Source: an uncultured Porphyromonadaceae bacterium
GTDB lineage: Bacteria; Bacteroidota; Bacteroidia; Bacteroidales; Muribaculaceae
DNA length: 43,154 bases
Assembly: GCA_945916235.1 (NCBI GenBank)
Contig: CAMEGQ010000011.1
Location: forward strand, 1 to 43,154
Direction of reading: 5' to 3'
A program made the translations under genes and the position numbers. The stretch's first letter is position 1. Each line of letters starts with the position of its first letter. The notes below the pieces were generated by a model, which did no database searches, was not told where the DNA came from, and was given only the letters and a program-made list of their open reading frames with translations. Positions 3,506 to 29,700 of the stretch are shown one piece after another.

Positions 3506-3615
3506 TGGAGGCGTATGCTACGCACTTATGTGGACACGTATTCGTTTGTGGGCACACGTCTGTTGTGGAGGCGTATGTTTGTGAGTGGGGGCGTGTTGCA
3601 ATGTGGGCACAAGCG
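3506..3615. repeat. short array related to the large 21-base-period array
   Basis: Six TGG-starting units lie at 3506, 3531, 3549, 3566, 3586 and 3604 (17-25 bases apart), each TGG[A/G] plus a short C/G/A segment and then CGT or CAC. The 12-mer TGGAGGCGTATG occurs exactly twice (3506 and 3566). The motif resembles the first half of the large array's core. The stretch 3414-3620 contains no convincing gene, and apart from this array it is ordinary leader sequence for the gene starting at 3413. Confidence 0.6.
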
Positions 3616-3620
3616 AGGGC

Positions 3621-3656
3621 ATAAGAAAGCCACCCAACCCCGTAGGGCTGGGTGGC
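3621..3656 (-). terminator. rho-independent terminator
   Basis: GCCACCCA (3629-3636) pairs with TGGGTGGC (3649-3656), with a further CCC/GGG pairing inside the loop. The minus strand continues with TTTCTTAT. It lies about 20 bases past the stop of the 211-residue gene. Confidence 0.8.
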
Positions 3657-3677
3657 GTCGCTTGTGTCAGTGCGAGA

Positions 3678-4313
3678 TTATGCGGCTTGTTTTTTGGCAG
3701 TTTTTGCCTCACTTGTGGGGGTTAAAGCGGGCTTGTTGTCCACGGCATCGTTGTAGATGCTCTCAGCCTTGGCGAGGATAGACGTACGGAGATTGGCTTG
3801 CTTGGCGATAGCTTTTGCCGTGGTCTTCATCAGTGCGGCCAGTGCGTCACCTGTCGCAGTGAGCAGGGGCGAGGTTTTCTTAACGTTGAGCGCCGTGTGT
3901 CGGAGCAGCAAGCCGTCGTCGAGGGTGAGGTCGCTTTTGAGTGTGCCGTTGCTGTCGGTCTTATACACGACGTTACCTGCAAGCCAGCGAGTGAACGTGC
4001 TCTTGGCCGTGAGTTTGGTTTCGATTTCCTCAGTGCCGACCTTGACGACCTTGAACGCCACGGCGAACCCGTTTCGCTCCTGTGCGTCTGCCACCATAAG
4101 GGCGAGCAGGGGGAGGAGGATGCCGTCGCCGGAAATGCGTTTCACGCCCTCCACGGCCATAAACTCAGTCACTTCAACCATTTCGCCGTCGATACGTTTT
4201 TTGGCGTTGCGGAGGAGCACCGCTGCGTTGGCGGGCATAGGTGTGACGCCCTGGGTGCCGAATGTTACGTTGAACTTGATTTCGTTGTTGTTGGTTTTGT
4301 TGGTCTTAGCCAT
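3678..4313 (-). CDS. hypothetical protein bordering the repeat array
   Basis: A 211-residue protein with a Thr/Asn/Lys-rich start (MAKTNKTNNNEIKFNVTF), a hydrophobic helix near residues 65-75 (ILLPLLALMVADAQ) and an Ala/Lys-rich C-terminus ending KTAKKQAA. Codons are GC-rich compared with the phage late genes. The start is preceded by AAACGATT, and the stop is followed by a strong terminator, so it appears to be monocistronic. Upstream lie a cluster of hairpins and then the large repeat array. I do not recognise the family. A role in binding or using the array is a hypothesis based only on position and basic charge. Confidence 0.65.
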   Translation of the reverse strand: MAKTNKTNNNEIKFNVTFGTQGVTPMPANAAVLLRNAKKRIDGEMVEVTEFMAVEGVKRISGDGILLPLLALMVADAQERNGFAVAFKVVKVGTEEIETKLTAKSTFTRWLAGNVVYKTDSNGTLKSDLTLDDGLLLRHTALNVKKTSPLLTATGDALAALMKTTAKAIAKQANLRTSILAKAESIYNDAVDNKPALTPTSEAKTAKKQAA

Positions 4314-4350
4314 AATCGTTTCGCTTGGCCCTTATGCCTATGGGTAACTC

Positions 4351-4678
4351 GCACACCGCTTCCGTGTGCCCTTGTGAGTGAGTGTACGCTTGACTCTGCC
4401 TATCGATTGAGTTACAAACCGATTTTCGCCTTGTCACGAACGGACATAGTACGAGCCTATGTTCGGGGGCATTAAGCGTATCAACAACGATATGCAGTTT
4501 GCCATCTGCTACCCTACGTGTACTCGCTACGCTAAGCGTAGTTTTCGACCACTCTCCGAGAGGCATCTTGTGCTCACGTCGTGCGCCATACGGCTCACAC
4601 GACGCTTGTCGCATATCGCATTATGTCAAAGTTCTCTTGTCGCCGTTTGCCGTTGGTCTTGCTCACCTTGGCGGCGAC
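4351..4678. other. row of hairpins in the leader of the 211-residue gene
   Basis: This non-coding stretch (4314-4799) holds at least five inverted repeats in about 330 bases: 4351-4356/4364-4369 (6 bp), 4441-4449/4457-4465 (9 bp with one G-T pair), 4527-4532/4536-4541 (6 bp), 4577-4583/4598-4604 (7 bp with a GCC/GGC inner stem) and 4639-4645/4672-4678 (7 bp). If transcribed from the minus strand, they would form a structured 5' leader of the downstream gene. They could equally be DNA sites. An overlapping 102-residue frame (4306-4614, minus) has no gene-like support. I see no clear promoter here. Confidence 0.5.
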
Positions 4679-4799
4679 ATCAACAATATATGCACAACGA
4701 CCAAATTGTCAAGCATTTAAGTGAAGAAAATTTTGAAAAACTTGGCGCACGAGGCGAAGCCGGCGCGTGAAAAGTTTCGTGGGCAAGGAGGCGCAAAAA

Positions 4800-6295
4800 T
4801 GGGCGCTCCCACGGCTATGGGCATGGGCGCACCAATGTGGACGTGCCCATTTTGCGTGTCCATGTCCACACGACCTGGGCGACCACGCGAAACGCGAAAC
4901 GTCTGGCCACAATGGACGCACGTGTACATCCAGCCGCGCCCATAATTTTGGGTGACCACACGCACACGTCGTGTACGGCCAAGTCAGCGTCACTATGCAC
5001 GTCCACGACTTTCCCACTCACCCACATTATTCGTGTACGTCCATACGTGCCCATACAACTCCACGCGGCTCCACGTAAGTCCATGTCTGCCCAGTATTTT
5101 GGGCGCCCAACCGCAAGCTGGCCTCCCACGTTTCGTGCCACCACATTTGTCCACAGCCCTCCATAATTCACGGCCACCATCGTCCACGGCCTGTTATGGG
5201 CACCCACGAAATTTTGGACAGCCATCACGTTATATGGGCGTCCACGGAAAATCTTGGGTCTTGGACAGCCACACACGTCCACGAAGTCTTTGGGCGACCA
5301 TGCAATCATCTGGACGCCAACGAAGTTTTACGGACAGCCACGTAATCGTGTGGACACCCAACGACGACTGTTCTTGGACGGCCATGCGATATGTGTGAAC
5401 GACCATGACATCTTGTGGGCGGTCACGCAAATCTTTGGGCGCCCATGAAGTTTTGTGGGCCTGCACACGAGACATGTGGACGGCCAAGCCACGGCTCTTT
5501 TGGGTGCCCACGCACATATTGTGGACGTCCAACAACGGCAATCCTTGGACTCCCAAACATGTGGCCAATATCACGCATTTTGGGCCACCACAACGTTATG
5601 GGTGGAGCTCCACGTTATTTCGTTGGCCTCCCACGTTAAGTATTGGGCGACCACGAGGTATTATGGGCGACCAAGCAACTGCCGTATTGGACACCCACGA
5701 AGTTTTATGGACGGCCACGAGAATTTGTGGACGCTCACGTATAATCGTGGACTGCCAAAGTGAGGCGGCTTTTGGACGTCCACGTCACGAAATATTGACG
5801 TCCATCATGCGTTAATGGGCGACCATCACGCATTTTGTGGGCATCCAGCACATTATTATGGTCGCCCACGTTATGCGGATTGAGTCCCACGTTTATTCAT
5901 GGACGCCCACGTGAAAAATGTGGACTTCCACGCATTTATGTGGACTGCCGCAACATTTTTGTGGACGGCCACGAAACTTGTGTGGACGACCACGGAAAAT
6001 ATGTGGAGCCTCACGCATTTAGCTGGGCCACCACGACAACGTCATGGACGTCCACGGCGTATTTGTGGGCAGGCATCACGGCGTTGTGGGTATCCACGCA
6101 ACGTTGTGGAGGCGCATGGCGATAGTGTGGGCGCGTGGTGGGCGCCCACGACGCGAACTGTGGGCGCGTGGTGGGCGCCCACGACGCGAACTGTGGGCGC
6201 GTGTGGACACCCATGCGCGATTCTGTGGGGGCGCACGTGTTGCGTGTGGGCGTATGTGGGCGCGTGTATTTTGCGCACGTGGACGCGCACGTGTA
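4800..6295. repeat. large degenerate array with about 21-base period
   Basis: About 1.5 kb of non-coding DNA built from imperfect units. The best-ordered part (5197-6128) has 45 units I could place by eye, 44 intervals in 931 bases, mean about 21 bases, most intervals 20 or 21. The unit core is TGGRCGnCCACG, a near-palindrome followed by an 8-9 base A/T-rich spacer. Perfect palindromes TGGACGTCCA (5522, 5773, 6045) and TGGGCGCCCA (5100, 5436, 6139, 6172) are examples. Left of 5190 the half-sites are less regular, with CCA motifs about 10 bases apart around 5040-5095. Intervals of 20 and 24 bases break any reading frame. Twenty-one bases is two helical turns, so sites and A/T patches would lie on one face of the helix. 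Confidence 0.85.
6127..6203. repeat. exact 33-base tandem duplication inside the array
   Basis: A 33-base unit starting GTGGGCGCGTGGTGGGCGCC occurs twice without change (6127-6159 and 6160-6192), followed by an 11-base partial third copy (to 6203). Unlike the diverged units to the left, the identity implies recent duplication by slippage or unequal exchange. Confidence 0.9.
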
Positions 6296-6300
6296 AGGGC

Positions 6301-6334
6301 AAAGCAAAACCCCCAACCCCAAAGGGGTTGAGGG
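6301..6334 (-). terminator. rho-independent terminator
   Basis: CCCCCAACCCC (6310-6320) pairs with GGGGTTGAGGG (6324-6334) around an AAA loop. The minus strand continues TTTTGCTTT. It ends the 174-residue gene and separates it from the array. Confidence 0.85.
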
Positions 6335-6362
6335 CGAGCTTGCAGGGCGGTTGGTTGGCGGT

Positions 6363-6887
6363 TTATAGCTTCGCTATAACGGCGGCGATGAGGGACTTGG
6401 CTTGTTTTGGCTCGGCTCCGCCGACGTTTTTGCTCCAGTTGAATTTGGGCCAAAGGCCCAAAGCGACCGACTTAGCGACCTCTTCGAGGTCGAGGGTTTC
6501 AAGGGCTGTGCCCTTGGAGTGCTTGATAGCCTTTTTGCTGCTAAAAGCAGCAAAGAGCGAGTACAGGTAGCCGTGGATGTTGGGCTGGTCTTTGCTTGCT
6601 AAACTACGTTTAGCAGCAACCTCAAGCTCCTTGGTTTCCTCGTTTCGGCTCACCTTTTTGCCGAAGGCAAAGCCGTCGATGTCTTCGCTGGTAACGGCTA
6701 CGCCGTTAATGGCCTTGGCAAGCAGGGTTGCGGTGTGGTCGAAGACCACAGCCCACATGTCGCGGGTTTCCACGACACGAACCAGAGCCTTACCCCCTTT
6801 GGGGGTAGTTGCGGTTGTGGACTGAGGGTTAACAACTACGTTGTTAGCGTTGGCGGTGGTGTTGGGGGTGTTTGCGGACTGTGCCAT
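6363..6887 (-). CDS. hypothetical protein bordering the repeat array
   Basis: A 174-residue protein. The frame is open to 6953, but that extension covers the promoter, so I use the ATG at 6887 (MAQSANTPNTTANANNVVV). Residues 1-33 are a low-complexity Asn/Thr/Ala segment. The rest is a compact helical domain containing VVETRDMWAVVFDH and LYSLFAAFSSKKAIKH, ending with a Lys/Ala-rich helix. A TAnnTTTG promoter lies about 65 bases upstream and a strong terminator follows, so it is transcribed alone. I do not recognise the family. Like the 211-residue protein, it is flanked by array-type repeats on both sides. Confidence 0.65.
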   Translation of the reverse strand: MAQSANTPNTTANANNVVVNPQSTTATTPKGGKALVRVVETRDMWAVVFDHTATLLAKAINGVAVTSEDIDGFAFGKKVSRNEETKELEVAAKRSLASKDQPNIHGYLYSLFAAFSSKKAIKHSKGTALETLDLEEVAKSVALGLWPKFNWSKNVGGAEPKQAKSLIAAVIAKL

Positions 6888-6950
6888 GATTGTGAAAATT
6901 TTGGAAATTTGCCGAAACCCGTCGGCGGCGGTTTGTCGATGTTGACGGTG

Positions 6951-6958
6951 CAAAGTTA
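6951..6958 (-). promoter_or_regulatory. Bacteroidetes -7 element
   Basis: The minus strand reads TAACTTTG, matching the Bacteroidetes -7 consensus TAnnTTTG, 64 bases before the start of the 174-residue gene. No clear -33 TTTG is present at the usual distance. Confidence 0.55.
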
Positions 6959-7001
6959 GCCTCCCTCCCAGTGGGCTGGTGCGTGAAGGGTTTTAATACT
7001 T

Positions 7002-7025
7002 TTTTAACATCTAAAGATGTTAAAA
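7002..7025. promoter_or_regulatory. 11-bp dyad, possible operator
   Basis: TTTTAACATCT (7002-7012) and AGATGTTAAAA (7015-7025) form a perfect inverted repeat around AA. Outer arms ATACTT (6996-7001) and AAGTAT (7027-7032) extend the symmetry. It lies about 45 bases upstream of the -7 box of the 174-residue gene and could bind a dimeric regulator. A terminator role is less likely because no gene ends here. Confidence 0.5.
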
Positions 7026-7035
7026 CAAGTATCAA

Positions 7036-7192
7036 AACCCCGCGAGCGTCCACGCCGGAGTTGTGCGCCCACGCGCCCAATTTAACAACCCCGCACATGG
7101 GCGCACGGTCTTTGCTCGCCCATACGTGCGCACGGTTTTAGCTCGCGGGGTTGTTATATCGCGCATGTGGGCACGTGGTTGTTATACCGCGA
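7036..7192. repeat. nested inverted and direct repeats
   Basis: AACCCCGCGAGC (7036-7047) is the exact reverse complement of 7141-7152, and AACAACCCCGC (7084-7094) of 7145-7155. A 19-base direct repeat starting GCGCACGG occurs at 7101-7119 and 7128-7146 (two differences). A 15-base repeat (GGTTGTTATAYCGCG) occurs at 7149-7163 and 7178-7192 (one difference). Array-like GTCCACG, GCCCACG and GTGGGCACG words recur here. No gene is visible. Confidence 0.7.
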
Positions 7193-7221
7193 CGCTAACT
7201 TGCATGGAGTCAACACATAAG

Positions 7222-7346
7222 CGCAATTTACTACGTAAATTGCGAGGCGAGGGCGGTAGGGGCTGATTTTTGGGGTTTGACATACGCCCATTTTACCCCG
7301 TAGGGGTAACAGCGCCGATGGGGCTTTCACTTACTACAAAAGTGAA
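7222..7346. other. three hairpins in non-coding DNA
   Basis: Perfect stems: CGCAATTTAC (7222-7231) with 7235-7244; TACCCC/GGGGTA at 7294-7308; TTCACTT (7326-7332) with 7340-7346. The surrounding 7193-7782 contains no credible gene; its second half is pyrimidine-rich, with AT tracts (ATATATATA near 7423). Confidence 0.5.
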
Positions 7347-7433
7347 CCATCTAACTGCTTGATTTTGAGCACCTTAGCTGAACAAAAATGGAACGGAGGG
7401 CGTACCCGATGGTGGGGATTCCATATATATACT

Positions 7434-7728
7434 CCGGCCCCGATTTTCAAATTCGTTTTTTGGGAGGTTTTATTAACCCCGATGAGCAGACACAATCCTC
7501 CCAGCTTTCCTAAAGCCCTTCCCCTACCCTCTTAACATCAATCCTGGGAATCTATCACATGTTCCGTTACCTTTTTCATCGTTAAGACCAAACCTTCCCA
7601 GCACACATTAATATATATAACACCCACACCGTCTCATTGCTCCAAATTTTTCAACCTTCCACCATACGTTTTCTTAATATCAAAATCCAAAATTTTCCCC
7701 GGACTCCAATTTTGAAATCCGTTTTTTG
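7434..7728 (+). repeat. diverged direct repeat upstream of the plus-strand operon
   Basis: Two copies of a CCGG...ATTTTnAAATnCGTTTTTTG element lie at about 7434-7463 and 7699-7728. Four of the last 22 bases differ. The second copy lies about 55 bases upstream of the -7 box at 7783, so the element may be regulatory. Confidence 0.4.
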
Positions 7729-7782
7729 ACATTTTGACCAATTTTACCGCACATATTTCCCAAATATGCCAAAATTATCTCC

Positions 7783-7790
7783 TACCTTTG
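7783..7790 (+). promoter_or_regulatory. Bacteroidetes -7 element
   Basis: TACCTTTG matches TAnnTTTG 33 bases before the ATG of the 324-residue gene. The -33 region is AT-rich but lacks an exact TTTG at 19-21 bases. Confidence 0.6.
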
Positions 7791-7823
7791 CAAAACAGTT
7801 GATAATACCATAATCCATCAGCA

Positions 7824-8798
7824 ATGAAATCACAATTCCAGACCCTATCCTTTCTCTCGAATTACACCCCTCAAACCGACCTCGACGGCGATTTTATAAA
7901 TTCCTTTCTGGCACAATACCTCCAGACTACCCCAAAAACCGCCGTATTTGCCCCTAATTTCGACGGGAAGCCCTTGGATGCCCAATCATTCATCTCGTGG
8001 TTTAAAAACGGCTCAGAGGCCCTTAAAATTGCAAAATTCAAAAATCAGTTAATTTTGCTGGGAAATTGTACTCTTGACACATGCGATATAATAGGCTCTC
8101 TCCTTCCAGACGGTTCTATAAGCACTGAGAAATTTACCGTCACACCCGAACAAATTTCTGAAGTATCCGAACAGGAGGAGCAAACTTTTAAACAGGCTCT
8201 GCTGGATAACGGCCTTCAGCCATCCCCCACCACAATGCAGCTTGTCCCCAAATTTATTCCTGAGCTGGGAAATCGTGTAATCTTCTATGATTTCTCCATA
8301 AACGTTCAGGGCGTGGGGGTCGTTCGTGAGATAACCGATGATGATAACGTGATATTCTTTTGCTACTTCATCTATCCGACATCCACCCAGCCCAAACGTA
8401 TCGGCTACAACCTCCACGAAAACATCGGAGTCGCACTTCAGTCTTTTGTCTTCGAGAACATCGACAAGGAAGGTATCACTTCTACCCTGGGTGAATCCAC
8501 CAGTTGCTTCAGACGTCTCGGAAGAGAGCTAAACAAAGTCGGTAAGGTCTGGAAGGATAAACTGCACAGAATCGAACCGCTCGGCTTTGAACCCAAGCCC
8601 GGCTCAACATACTACTACATCACGGATAAGCTGGATGTAAAGACAGACCACGAAAAAGGCGTTGCCACCTCCAGAATGCGTTATTTGGCCGGGAACTATT
8701 TTACCAACATCAAGACAGCCTACAAGATGGAAAACAAAATCCGCGATCTGCTTAAAGATTATCTGGCCTCTGACGCATGGCCCGAAATGGAAGACTAA
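7824..8798 (+). CDS. hypothetical protein
   Basis: A 324-residue soluble protein, with no signal peptide or membrane helix. It has a helical N-terminal region, an acidic middle (VSEQEEQTFKQALLDNG) and a beta-rich stretch (NRVIFYDFSINVQGVGVV...FFCYFIYPT). The C-terminal part is basic and helical, containing SCFRRLGRELNKVGKVWKD and a Tyr-rich segment. I do not recognise the family. It is the first gene of a two-gene plus-strand unit with the BspA-like gene 18 bases downstream. This unit is oriented against all its neighbours, which suggests acquired cargo. Confidence 0.65.
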   Translation: MKSQFQTLSFLSNYTPQTDLDGDFINSFLAQYLQTTPKTAVFAPNFDGKPLDAQSFISWFKNGSEALKIAKFKNQLILLGNCTLDTCDIIGSLLPDGSISTEKFTVTPEQISEVSEQEEQTFKQALLDNGLQPSPTTMQLVPKFIPELGNRVIFYDFSINVQGVGVVREITDDDNVIFFCYFIYPTSTQPKRIGYNLHENIGVALQSFVFENIDKEGITSTLGESTSCFRRLGRELNKVGKVWKDKLHRIEPLGFEPKPGSTYYYITDKLDVKTDHEKGVATSRMRYLAGNYFTNIKTAYKMENKIRDLLKDYLASDAWPEMED

Positions 8799-8816: not shown

Positions 8817-9548
8817 ATGAGAAAAATTATCACTACCCTTCTTTTATGCTTATTGACGCTGGGAGTAATTGCCCAGGTCTCAAGCCGTATCAAGACCCGC
8901 TACGGTTACGTAAACCAACTGAAAGCTTACGGACGTGTACTCTACAAGGGTTTGAACTATTGCCCAGCTGGGAAAGATTCCCTTGTAGTTATGGATAACG
9001 GCAGTAAATCCGATAGCATCGTTATCCCGCCGATATTAACCATCGACAAAAAGCCATACACCGTCAGCGGCTTTAAGCAGATGGCTTTCGAGTACAAACA
9101 GGATTTGCGCTATATCAGCATCCCTTCTACAATCACTGAGATTCCTAACTCATGCTTCTATCATTGCCACAGGTTATCCAAGTGTGTGATGCCTGGGGTG
9201 GAAACCATCAAGGGCTATGCTTTTTTAAGCACCGGATTTGAACGCCTTGTTTTCCACGAAGGGCTGAGGTATATCGGAGACTATGCCTTTAACGGATGTT
9301 CGGACTTGAGATATGTCGAATTTCCCAGCACCCTGAAGAAAATCGGTTCCGGAGCTTTCCTTCAATGCAACATCGATACATTCAAGGTTCATGCCACCGA
9401 ACCCATTCAGCTGGAAAAGGGGGCCGTAAGCACACACGCCAACGATTACCACCATAGACAGACCGTGCTGTTGGTCCCCAAGGGAAGTAAGGCTCTGTAT
9501 CAGGCAGACAAAAACTGGGGACACTTCACCCGCATCGAAGAATTTTGA
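8817..9548 (+). CDS. secreted BspA-type leucine-rich-repeat protein
   Basis: A 243-residue protein with a cleavable signal peptide (MRKIITTLLLCLLTLGVIAQ, cleavage around residue 20). LRR_5/BspA repeats cover about residues 85-180, with the typical pattern I-P-S-T-I-x-x-I, C-F-Y-H-C and Y-I-G-D-Y-A-F-N-G-C. The tail has the VPKGSKALYQAD motif commonly ending such proteins in Bacteroidales. The family is known in Bacteroidetes and other host-associated microbes as surface or secreted binding proteins. In a phage region it is probably lysogenic-conversion cargo or a horizontally acquired host gene. The family call is strong; the ligand is unknown. Confidence 0.85.
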   Translation: MRKIITTLLLCLLTLGVIAQVSSRIKTRYGYVNQLKAYGRVLYKGLNYCPAGKDSLVVMDNGSKSDSIVIPPILTIDKKPYTVSGFKQMAFEYKQDLRYISIPSTITEIPNSCFYHCHRLSKCVMPGVETIKGYAFLSTGFERLVFHEGLRYIGDYAFNGCSDLRYVEFPSTLKKIGSGAFLQCNIDTFKVHATEPIQLEKGAVSTHANDYHHRQTVLLVPKGSKALYQADKNWGHFTRIEEF

Positions 9549-26095: not shown

Positions 26096-26494
26096 ATGGA
26101 AGATAAAGAAATTCTTGACACCGTAGAAAACGACGTAATCGATTCTAAGGTTATCGCAGCTATCGAAAAGAAGGCCGCAGAACTCAAAGCTAACAACCCT
26201 AAGGCAAAGAAAGTGATTCCTCTGCTGGTAGAAGGTGACGTTGATGACGAGAAAGAGTATTACGTAGGTTACTTCACTCAGCCTTCGTTTATGGACTTCT
26301 CCAAGTATCTCACTCTTTCGCAGAAGGACCAGGCGTCGGCTATGCGCCAGCTTGCTAAGGACTGCTTTATTGAAGGCGACCGCGAGCTTCTGGACGACGA
26401 CTCGCTATTTCTTTTCGGCCTGATGGGACAGCTTCAGCACCTCATTAAGATGCGTGGTGGCCGAGTCATAAATTTATCCAAGCCTGGGAAGTAA
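26096..26494 (+). CDS. tail assembly chaperone, short form
   Basis: A 132-residue acidic, helical protein between the tube and tape measure genes, the normal place of the G-type tail assembly chaperone. Its end (NLSKPGK) lies inside a region where the -1 frame continues open for 61 residues. It has Glu/Asp/Lys-rich helices (EKKAAELKANNPKAKK) and a C-terminal helix GLMGQLQHLIKM. It is expected to coat the tape measure during tail assembly. Confidence 0.75.
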   Translation: MEDKEILDTVENDVIDSKVIAAIEKKAAELKANNPKAKKVIPLLVEGDVDDEKEYYVGYFTQPSFMDFSKYLTLSQKDQASAMRQLAKDCFIEGDRELLDDDSLFLFGLMGQLQHLIKMRGGRVINLSKPGK

Positions 26495-26661
26495 AAGAGG
26501 ACGATTACTTTCGTCAGAAGTTAATCTACCTACGACATTACTTTCCGGGTGTTAATATTGACGATCTTGACGATGAGACATTCGCAATTCTCGTTAACGA
26601 TGCTGAATGGATGCACTCTCAGATGGTCATAACCCGATACGCAAATGCTTTAGGTCTATAA
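26096..26661 (+). CDS. tail assembly chaperone, frameshifted long form (GT-like)
   Basis: The -1 frame entered at 26470-26476 reads on without a start codon to TAA at 26659-26661, adding 61 residues beginning IQAWEVKEDDYFRQK and ending RYANALGL. The joined product would be 188 residues. A stop in the -1 frame near 26446 fixes the shift between about 26449 and 26494, and the only canonical heptamer there is A AAT TTA. This is the known arrangement of G/GT proteins in many tailed phages. The extension has coding-like composition but no ATG near its start, supporting frameshifting over separate translation. Confidence 0.75.
26470..26476 (+). other. -1 frameshift slippery sequence
   Basis: A AAT TTA in the zero frame fits the X XXY YYZ pattern, so both tRNAs can re-pair on AAA and TTT after slipping back one base. 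The zero-frame stop follows 15 bases downstream. No strong downstream stem is evident to me. Confidence 0.75.
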
Positions 26662-26674
26662 TTACACTCGTTGA

Positions 26675-26712
26675 GACCCCGCTGTTTCCTCCTTGCAGCG
26701 GGGTCCTTCTTT
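26675..26712 (+). terminator. hairpin between chaperone and tape measure genes
   Basis: GACCCCGCTG (26675-26684) pairs exactly with CAGCGGGGTC (26696-26705), followed by CTTCTTT. The T run is imperfect, so termination may be partial, which suits a following gene needed in few copies. Confidence 0.65.
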
Positions 26713-26763
26713 ACCCGTGGTTTCTTCGCTATCTCTATTCTATGTAAAGGACTTTCTACAATT

Positions 26764-29700
26764 ATGGCTGGACAAACATACCAAGTTAATTATATAGTCA
26801 ACGTTGACGCAGTCTCTGCTCAGAATGCGATTAATTCGTTTAAAAGAGCGGTTGCATCGATGGACAAAGCCACAAAGCCTCTGATAGACTTACAGAACAA
26901 AGTCCGTGGTCTTGTGGAGACTATGAGTGCGCTTAACCGAGGAAAATATTCGGTTAATATCAACACGAAGCCTGCTACACAAAAGATAGGCAAGCTGATT
27001 CGCGCCTTACAGATGGCAAAGTCTGAGGTACAACAGCTAAATGCCATGGGAGTTACTTTAGGTGCGACTAAAGGACGTGCTGCGACTAAGGCGATTCCTG
27101 CTCCTATTGGAGGGTCGAGGGCATCCCAGCCCCGCGTTTCGCCTGCCCGCACCACTCCTGCGACTTCTACTTCTGCTCGTGCTTATACTCCTATGGCATA
27201 TACTCGTCCAGGTAATTTAAGCTATAAGCTCTTCGGCCCTACGCCTCTGCCGAACAATGGCGGTATGGCTATTGATATGCTGAAAGGCATGGGCATCGCT
27301 TACGGTATTGCCGGTATGGGAACAATGGTTTCCAACATTGTTAATCAGGCCGCTGAATACGACAACCTGATGAAGACGGTTGAGAATATCCTGAAATCGC
27401 ACGACACGGGGGCCAATTTCTCAGGCCGATTCTCTTCGATGTCAACTACCGTCCGTAACGTTGGTATGGAAACTAAGTTCAAGGTGACTGAGGTTGCAGA
27501 TGCCGCTAAGTTCTTGGCGATGGCCGGTCTGAATGTAGAAGCGATTTCTCAGGCCATTCGACCGATTGCTGACATTGCGCTTGTAGGTGATACTGAACTG
27601 GGCCAGACCGCCGACTTGGTTACTAATATTATGACTGCATATAACATTGCGCCGGGCAAGATGCGCAATGCAGCTGATATTATGACCAATACTTTCACCA
27701 TGTCTAACACCACGTTGACGGAGATTGCAGAAGCCTATAAGTATGCTGCATCTCTGTTATCGGCTGGTGATGTGCCTTTTGAAGAGGCGACCGCCGCAAT
27801 CGGTGTACTTGGCGACGCAGGTATCAAAGGTTCTCAGGCAGGCACCACGCTCCGTACCATTATGGCTAACGTGGTCAATCCTACCAAGAAACAGCAAAAG
27901 GCTTGGGCTGAAATTGGCGTAAACCGTTTTAATTCGGACGGTTCCCGAAAGAGTCTTCTTGAGATATTCAAGGAACTTAATCAAGCTAATTTAGATGTAA
28001 GCACATACTATAGGCTTTTTCATAAGACAGCGGCATCTGGAGCGGTTGCTCTCGCTTCTCATGCAGGTAAGTGGGAAGATGTATATCTTGAAAACTTTTT
28101 AGCCGGAGGTCTTTCGGCGAACTTGGCAGACGCAAAAAAGAACACACTTCAGGGTTTATGGGCACAGCTCGTGTCTGTCTTCACTGATAAGGGTGTAACC
28201 GCCTTTAACAGTGTGCAAGGCCAAATTCGAGATATGATGACTACGGCAATCAACTGGCTGAAGAGCGACCAAGCTTCAAAGGCATTTAAGGAGATTTCCA
28301 AAAATTTGATGGAGTTTGTTCATACTATCATTGATGCAACCAAATGGTTTGCTAAATTATATGGATGGGCTTGGCCATTTATTAAAGTGTGGGCCAAATT
28401 CCAGCTTATGATTTGGCCCGTAGTTAAAGCTGTTACTGCTTTGCGTAGCGTCTTCCTGGCAATTATGGGAATACGTAAGCTTGGTTTGTTTATCAGTGGT
28501 TTGATTACCTCTTTTAGAAGCCTCGGAACTGCTGCAACGTTTGCATCAAGAGGAGTGGCCAGCGTAACTGGAACTGGTGTAGCTGCTACTGCTGGCTCTG
28601 CTGCCACATCTATGACGGTAAAGTCAGCTTTAGGAGGATTGTTTATGCTTTCTCCGCAACAGGCAACTTGGGCTAAAAATGGCTTTAGCATTATGGGGCG
28701 CCGTGTTATGCGTCCGCTTGACTTGACTCCAAGATATGATAGAGGCTCCTATGATATTGTCGGCAGACACCAATACAATCGACAGGAACTTGCTCGTGTT
28801 CAGCGAGAGCGCAAAATATACAACCGAAGAGCATTTGCGCAGCAGGCGGTTAATGTAGCCGGTGGCGCGGCTGGCGCTTTGGCTTTAGGCTATGGTATGC
28901 ACAAAATTGCTGATGCAGATAATGGTTATGATACATGGTCTGGCGTAATGTACGGCATCGCCGGTACTGCCGCTATGGTTGGCGGTCCTTATGGCTGGGG
29001 TATTGCCGCTGGTGCCGCAATTGTTGGCGGCATTATGCAGGCAATCGGATCTGCCACTCAGTCTAACAAGATTTACGGTGAGCTTCAGGAGTTTGCGAAA
29101 AAGAATGCGATTAATAGTGGCGTCATAGCAGGCTCTGAGAGCCGAACCATGCAATATCTGGAAGCTCAATATACTAAATATAATGACATTAATGGCCTTA
29201 TAGAAAAGCGTATTGAGCTGACTGCTAAACTTCTTGGATTGCAGAGTGGCGATAATCCCATGGATGCTTCTACTGGTGTATTTCAGGGTCTTATGGAAAA
29301 GCATGAAGACTTGTGGGAGAGCGACAATCTAAAAGCATTCAATGAGATTTATCGCGATAAGTTCAACTCCAATAAGCATCTTATTTTCTATAAAGGAGCT
29401 TATTATTTAACCACAGCCGATTCTCTGACAGGCGGTTATGTCAATGAAGGAGGAAAGAGCTATTATAAAGTGCAGGGAGTCAATGGAGAAGAGGCTCTAA
29501 GAGCTGGTACTTCTGCTACCAATAGCATGAAAGCAGCGTTCGCAAGTATGGCGGCTACTGCTGAGCTTATGTCTCCTGGCGGCTATTATGAAAAGTTAGT
29601 TGAAGGTTTGCGTTTAAATATCGCAAAGCTGGGTAGGAAAGGTGCTAGTGCACTAGAAGCTGATAGCTATTTTGATCAAATTGCCAAAGCTAATAATCCT

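Follow-up and report, generated by a model that had tools for sequence, protein, structure and literature searches.

A close-packed array of TGG-N4-CCA sites near the apparent replication origin of a Bacteroidales phage lineage: a possible protein docking platform

The window, the whole 43,154-nucleotide stretch of DNA that was analysed, is an entire contig (G000:C11) from a 2.72-Mb genome, and its genes include those for a phage portal, a head protease, a tail sheath and a baseplate hub. In the phage collection, a single record matches the first 25 kb, namely the 111,694-b Bacteroides phage BS-TP1 (PQ571274), at 76% identity across 36% of the query. An array of short inverted half-sites occupies positions 4800-6295, flanked on the left by the start of gene A and on the right by the end of gene B, both of which are read leftward, and the locus is composed of the following features:

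3678-4313, minus strand: gene A, which flanks the array and encodes a 211-aa protein of an orphan family
4314-4490, minus strand: structured RNA leader of gene A, recognized by covariation, a separate feature between the array and gene A
4679-4738, no strand assigned: AT-rich 60-bp block with 28% GC adjoining the left end, found by a lowest-GC search in 13 of 13 arrays
4737-4777, minus strand: conserved hairpin at the left boundary with a leftward T-run, terminator-like by eye, with compensatory stem changes
4800-6295, plus strand: complete TGG-N4-CCA array, 60 sites by TGGRCGNCCA with at most two mismatches
5034-5170, plus strand: left arm of CCA half-sites at 10-bp steps, six in 5041-5091 and three in 5141-5161
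5197-6128, plus strand: regular core with sites mainly 20-21 bp apart, 41 sites by the same TGGRCGNCCA criterion
6107-6295, plus strand: right arm of TGG half-sites together with a recent 33-bp tandem duplication (6126-6233)
6310-6334, minus strand: leftward hairpin directly after gene B, terminator-like by eye, its stem varying with compensation between phages
6363-6887, minus strand: gene B, encoding a 174-aa protein of an orphan family that starts with MAQSAN
7040-7200, no strand assigned: further half-site cluster upstream of gene B, weaker than the array and recognized by eye

An array at 4800-6295 had been proposed from the letters alone, and both its coordinates and the underlying observation hold. 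Within this stretch, there are 11 exact copies of TGGRCGNCCACG and 27 copies with at most one mismatch, as compared to means of 0.0 and 0.28 in 50 dinucleotide shuffles, while the remaining 41.7 kb of the window contain no exact copy and two copies with at most one mismatch. This enrichment of the core over shuffled sequence was one check named by the original prediction; another, an autocorrelation, peaks at lag 20 (0.352, the top of 100 shuffles being 0.307), with lag 21 in third place after lag 65. The more degenerate TGGRCGNCCA with at most two mismatches is found at 60 sites as compared to a shuffle mean of 7.6, and 41 of these start between 5197 and 6128, where 45 units had originally been placed.

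As the recommended comparison with related phage genomes shows, the element recurs next to the same orphan genes in these phages, in 12 distinct arrays besides that of the window. Including the window, 14 records provide 13 distinct arrays of 890-1755 bp as cut with 30-69 sites each, as L017, the array of which is identical to that of L012, was dropped from the array counts. Besides the window, these records comprise BS-TP1, three IMG/VR contigs reached via gene A (L010-L012), contigs of Palleniella muris and Prevotella sp. MGM2 (L016, L017), five more IMG/VR contigs for which the spacing pattern was the sole search criterion (L057, L062, L065, L066 and L067) and two further genomes to which a profile of gene B led (L090, L091). 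The spacing-pattern scan yielded 21 loci, namely five dense arrays accompanied by gene A and/or gene B, one simple 10-bp repeat (L061) and 15 loci that appear chance-like. Gene B adjoins the array in all 13 distinct arrays and gene A in 12 of these; in L067, where a gene A match is absent, a 337-aa protein is encoded in its place. Identity to the proteins of the window falls to 45% for gene A and to 27% for gene B. All 12 records of the gene B search (eight viral contigs, three genomes and BS-TP1) carry an adjacent array, a co-occurrence that is not free of selection since the profile was partly built from array-bearing contigs, and 11 of the 12 also carry gene A. Scans with the gene B and gene A profiles for further relatives returned eight and seven known viral contigs, respectively, and no new one; 397 genomes of the same family contained two new relatives, and 393 genomes of the order only the window's own copy. 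In a limited search of titles and abstract starts in the open-access literature, a published description of such an element was not found, nor was a mention of BS-TP1.

Along the arrays, the half-sites are unevenly distributed. Lone CCA half-sites lie mainly in the first three tenths (134 of 200), with distances peaking at 10 bp (34 cases versus three at 9 and seven at 11), and of 177 lone TGG half-sites, 60 belong to the first tenth and 59 to the last two tenths. Coding sequence was tentatively set aside as a reading of the array, since no frame is maintained across sites 20 or 21 bp apart; long open frames are present in several arrays.

Which part of the site is maintained was read from aligned relatives, using well-aligned columns and exact units of five array pairs, each counted in both directions, while a sixth pair (L066/L090) yielded no usable columns. 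Changed positions amount to 10 of 689 in the arms (1.5%), 80 of 461 in the centre (17.4%) and 536 of 6824 in the spacers (7.9%); the Fisher p values for arm conservation are 1e-23 and 5e-13, with pairs counted both ways and not independent. The invariant part of the site is TGG-N4-CCA, with arms under strong purifying selection and a free centre. Of the core TGGRCGnCCACG initially put forward, the TGG and CCA arms are retained, whereas the RCGN centre is the fastest-evolving part; by eye, the centre preferences are GYGY-like in L066 and NCNT-like in L057. Selection on half-sites instead of recent expansion, as had been suggested, is strongly supported by these numbers. The right end of the array at 6126-6233 does hold a recent tandem duplication of a 33-bp unit (3.3 copies, 89% matches). 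Larger exchanges are apparent as well: the arrays of L012/L017 and L016 are 97% alike on the left and 98% on the right and only 61% in the middle (about 450 bp), the middle of L016 is 77% like that of L011, and the longest blocks common to the L012/L017 and L016 genomes are 96-98% alike, so that the array middle has probably been swapped between relatives by recombination.

The units had been called near-palindromic, which is true for the arms as mirror images but not for a full palindrome, as one polarity prevails. Among 253 distinct exact units of 12 arrays, position 4 carries 0.48 bits versus 0.09 at its mate, position 7, and positions 11-12 carry 0.44 and 0.33 bits versus 0.11 and 0.09 at their mates; because these positions are more constrained than their mates, units tend to point one way. 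The modal intervals in the window are 20 and 21 bp (17 and 14 of 61). With 16 as the smallest interval allowed, the intervals pooled over 13 arrays number four at 18, 18 at 19, 152 at 20, 126 at 21, 50 at 22, 36 at 23 and 26 at 24, with a tail to 26, and the mode in L067 is 23. A permuted-interval test for long-range helical phase gave p = 0.08 for the window and 0.21-1.0 for the other 12 arrays, and strict helical phasing is hence unsupported in 13 of 13 arrays. Of the spacing originally described, the local preference for 20-21 bp persists while a phase kept along the array does not, and the idea of selection on helical phase across the array is not supported by the same test. As the 20-21-bp spacing is local and long-range phase is not kept, the sites look close-packed and not strictly phased, neighbours being about two turns apart without long-range helical register. 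The steep lower edge of the interval distribution together with its upper tail would fit footprints of about 20 bp that are closely packed.

Short inverted half-sites can, in principle, act in DNA or in RNA. A non-coding RNA with dozens of protein-binding motifs, read leftward between two terminator-like hairpins in the manner of a CsrB-like sponge, would make sense of the leftward hairpins at both ends of the array, and TGG-N4-CCA could fold into 3-bp hairpins. Among 437 in-register units of 12 arrays, however, pair 3/8 of the arms shows 168 single changes, 128 of which would break pairing in plus-strand RNA, and seven double changes; motifs in conserved RNA hairpins, as in a CsrB-like sponge, were not found by this count. 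Four of the seven double changes are Watson-Crick versus 2.4 expected from single changes, or four or five pair where 2.4-3.2 are expected, and the other two arm pairs have zero and one double changes. A smaller set of 239 units from six arrays contains four double changes at pair 3/8, none of them Watson-Crick. L065, 97.9% like L062, was left out of the covariation and unit tables. In a looser set that includes out-of-register windows, 19 of 52 double changes at pair 3/8 are Watson-Crick and, with G-U allowed on one or the other strand, 29 or 35 of the 52 pair as compared to 21.5 and 24 expected by hand, which somewhat exceeds expectation and leans towards pairing; the in-register count is more trusted. 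Furthermore, the adjacent leader RNA covaries clearly, unlike the array arms, the CCA half-sites of the left arm are partnerless, and 3-bp hairpins are weak. A search of positions 3600-8000 of the window against Rfam gave three matches, all to microRNA families and all below gathering scores. The RNA sponge is consequently considered very unlikely, and an array of RNA hairpins with TGG-RCGN-CCA as stem and tetraloop was rejected, most arm changes being uncompensated. Because arm changes are mostly uncompensated, and because of the partnerless CCA half-sites in the left arm, duplex DNA read by base fits better than RNA hairpins, and the nucleoprotein element suspected from the beginning is, on duplex DNA, the reading that fits best.

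A search for the 60-bp stretch poorest in GC not more than 250 bp from the left end, in which some low value is expected, gave 22-28% GC in 13 of 13 arrays (0.1-3.5 percentile of the surroundings), the stretch starting 54-99 bp ahead of the array as cut. This AT-rich block overlaps the T-run of the left-boundary hairpin and may be an unwinding element or part of a terminator or promoter. Within the BS-TP1-like group, the stem of the left hairpin reads GGC-GAA-GCC, but GTC-GAA-GAC in L011 and AGC-GAA-GCT in L091, which are compensatory changes, while in L016 the loop is changed; the hairpin after gene B also varies between phages with compensation, as judged by eye. With such hairpins on both flanks, the array seems to be shielded from transcription.

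The leader of gene A (4314-4490) is distinct from the array. Alignment A9 of 12 sequences, 11 of them distinct, supports 34 pairs with 92.7% of cells paired, and 13 pairs have changed on both sides as compared to a shuffle mean of 6.4 and at most five in slid structures. No Rfam family matches this stretch, which makes the leader a candidate for a new RNA element. The location of the array upstream of the leftward gene A and near this structured leader can also be read as that of a giant operator or titration array, where a repressor or silencer coat would control gene A and its neighbours, or a regulator would be soaked up; BS-TP1 indeed has a gene annotated as LexA-like repressor. We regard this as rather improbable, as a hairpin that is terminator-like by eye separates the array from gene A, 30-69 sites far exceed the need of an operator, and the gene labelled LexA-like, gp124, has no Pfam match.

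Sequence searches of genes A and B against Pfam, PHROGs and PDB provided no credible relative. The best PDB match covers 28 residues of a receptor tyrosine phosphatase (E 0.026); gene B weakly matches PHROG 27449 of unknown function (E 0.035) and, in one of eight members, DUF5691 (E 0.0079), gene A weakly matches BIg21 in five of eight members (best E 0.097), and the structure model of gene A is unusable (pLDDT 33). In the neighbouring genes A, B, C and D, Pfam identified neither an initiator domain nor a partition domain (ParR, ParB, ParM).

The position of the array relative to the origin of replication was approached by a regression in which coding strand and a replication term accounted for the GC skew at third codon positions of open frames; origin and terminus were free parameters, the leading strand was assumed to be rich in G and contigs were treated as circular. 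The skew origin is offset from the array by +3.0, +2.0, -5.8, -5.6 and -6.2 kb in BS-TP1, G393, G394, G397 and G396, and by -8.3, -9.7, 0 and +2.0 kb in G789, G790, G791 and G792. By this indirect measure, it lies within 0-9.7 kb of the array in nine of nine genomes of 98-126 kb; five of these are close relatives, and gene order is shared. The 5-95% bootstrap ranges (20 replicates each) include the array in BS-TP1, G393, G394, G397 and G396, and an origin placed at the array attains, among all positions, a rank of 0-12% from the top in seven genomes, of 33% in G789 and of 23% in G790. Among the roles originally considered, a replication control region is therefore favoured by the GC skew. The annotation of BS-TP1 includes its own polymerase, helicase and primase. 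DnaA-box-like sites were found neither inside the array nor up to 1.5 kb to its left in 13 arrays, while a DnaA-like box occurs 1.1-1.5 kb past the right end in five of 13; a host DnaA origin was rejected on these grounds.

Arrays of protein-binding sites equally serve segregation. The parC centromeres of type II partition systems consist of direct repeats of 10, 11 or 20 bp on which the small protein ParR seeds a higher-order structure, according to PMC9426499, and the left arm of the phage array with its 10-bp half-site repeats resembles them to that extent. A centromere-like site, or a condensation or packaging platform, at which the coated array would tether or position genomes in lysogeny or the lytic cycle, could in addition draw on gp90 of BS-TP1, which matches ParA/CbiA families. 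The core of the phage array, unlike parC, is built of inverted half-sites every 20-21 bp, is much longer, and no ParR or ParM domain was found next to it; membership is not claimed. The gene for gp90 is moreover some 20 kb distant from the array, adjacent to one annotated as radical SAM, and its best fit is PF10609, described as NUBPL iron-transfer NTPase, and the terminase genes of BS-TP1 are 37-41 kb away. The copy in G396 is joined to genes for an RND pump, HlyD and an AraC-type regulator close to tRNA genes and looks integrated in bacterial DNA, although a direct repeat of at least 14 bp between its first 1.5 kb and 109-120 kb was not found; as an integrated prophage would need no partition site, this weakens the partition role that had been among the initial proposals, as does the finding that no recognisable partition genes flank the array. 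A segregation or DNA-organising site is accordingly thought unlikely.

The conserved array near the apparent origin suggests a large protein platform that starts or organises phage DNA replication. The explanation we prefer, at a little under an even chance, is a docking array on duplex DNA at or near the replication origin of a Bacteroidales phage lineage with genomes of about 100 kb. A phage-encoded dimer would read one TGG per subunit, the product of gene B being the first candidate and that of gene A the second. Adjacent dimers would bind side by side and coat about 1-1.5 kb, and binding would be looser in the arms of half-sites, which on the left follow one another at 10-bp steps; the coated assembly might then melt the AT-rich block at the left end or recruit the phage's own helicase and primase, while the terminators would keep RNA polymerase out of the array.

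What speaks against this explanation, besides the indirectness of the skew and the negative searches for an initiator domain and for DnaA-like boxes in the array, is that known phage and plasmid origins have, to our knowledge, far fewer sites. In iteron origins such as those of RK2, P1 and F, sites of the same orientation follow each other at 19-23 bp next to an AT-rich block, and the phage sites prevail in one orientation and adjoin an AT-rich block as well; iterons, however, are few, nearly identical and adjacent to a Rep gene, whereas the phage array has 30-69 divergent sites and no Rep domain was found. The stoperators of mycobacteriophage L5 are many phage-borne sites for one phage protein, as the present sites putatively are, but they are scattered over the genome, whereas the sites described here form one compact array. 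Also comparable in layout are EBV oriP, with its family of repeats and dyad symmetry, and the KSHV LANA terminal repeats, in both of which a dimeric viral protein has an array of sites. In the dyad element of EBV, according to PMC3798644, tandem sites 21 bp apart centre to centre are bound cooperatively by viral dimers. The latent origins of EBV and KSHV are linked to replication and genome maintenance. Those origins, in contrast, belong to eukaryotic viruses, and the phage sites are far more numerous and much more divergent. Comparison of the gene A and B proteins with PDB chains gave no sequence relative pointing to EBNA1 or LANA; the likeness concerns how the array might work, and membership is not claimed.

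A more specific proposal, which we put forward tentatively, is that of an undescribed origin platform of a prokaryotic virus: a one-polarity, close-packed array in which an orphan protein of the gene B family would coat up to about 70 degenerate sites for dimers, working like herpesvirus latent origins and marking, together with the adjacent structured RNA, the Bacteroidales phage lineage of about 100 kb. On the replication of this lineage nothing was found in the literature searched. If true, the docking array would give these phages a candidate origin defined by sequence, together with two orphan proteins as candidates for DNA binding, and would be a bacterial-virus counterpart of the herpesvirus origin arrays. 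A long binding array can apparently hold its layout under sequence turnover, with arms fixed, the centre free and the middle swapped between relatives.

Some features in the surroundings deserve mention. Short perfect hairpins (stem of 7 or more, loop of 3-6) cluster within gene B and in the sequence preceding it, some of them thus in coding DNA, with 20 of the window's 34 located in 6000-8000 (three window shuffles: 11, 7 and 9); in BS-TP1, 16 of 60 lie at 65-67 kb (shuffles: 35, 51 and 48). Upstream of gene B, a long hairpin at 6983-7043 matches the Rfam family mir-3047 below threshold (44.3 bits versus a cut-off of 53), which is probably mere hairpin resemblance. A gene for a BspA-type leucine-rich-repeat protein (8817-9548; Pfam LRR_5, E 5e-25) lies near the array. 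The simple repeat of L061 (6165-6270) consists of about ten head-to-tail copies of TGGGCATCCA with a 10-bp period followed by a 7-bp repeat of GACACCA, near a gene for a 248-aa protein that is unrelated to genes A and B by tblastn. In BS-TP1 (L020), genes annotated as reverse transcriptase and four-helix-bundle protein are adjacent at 26168-28151, a pair that we take to resemble a diversity-generating retroelement.
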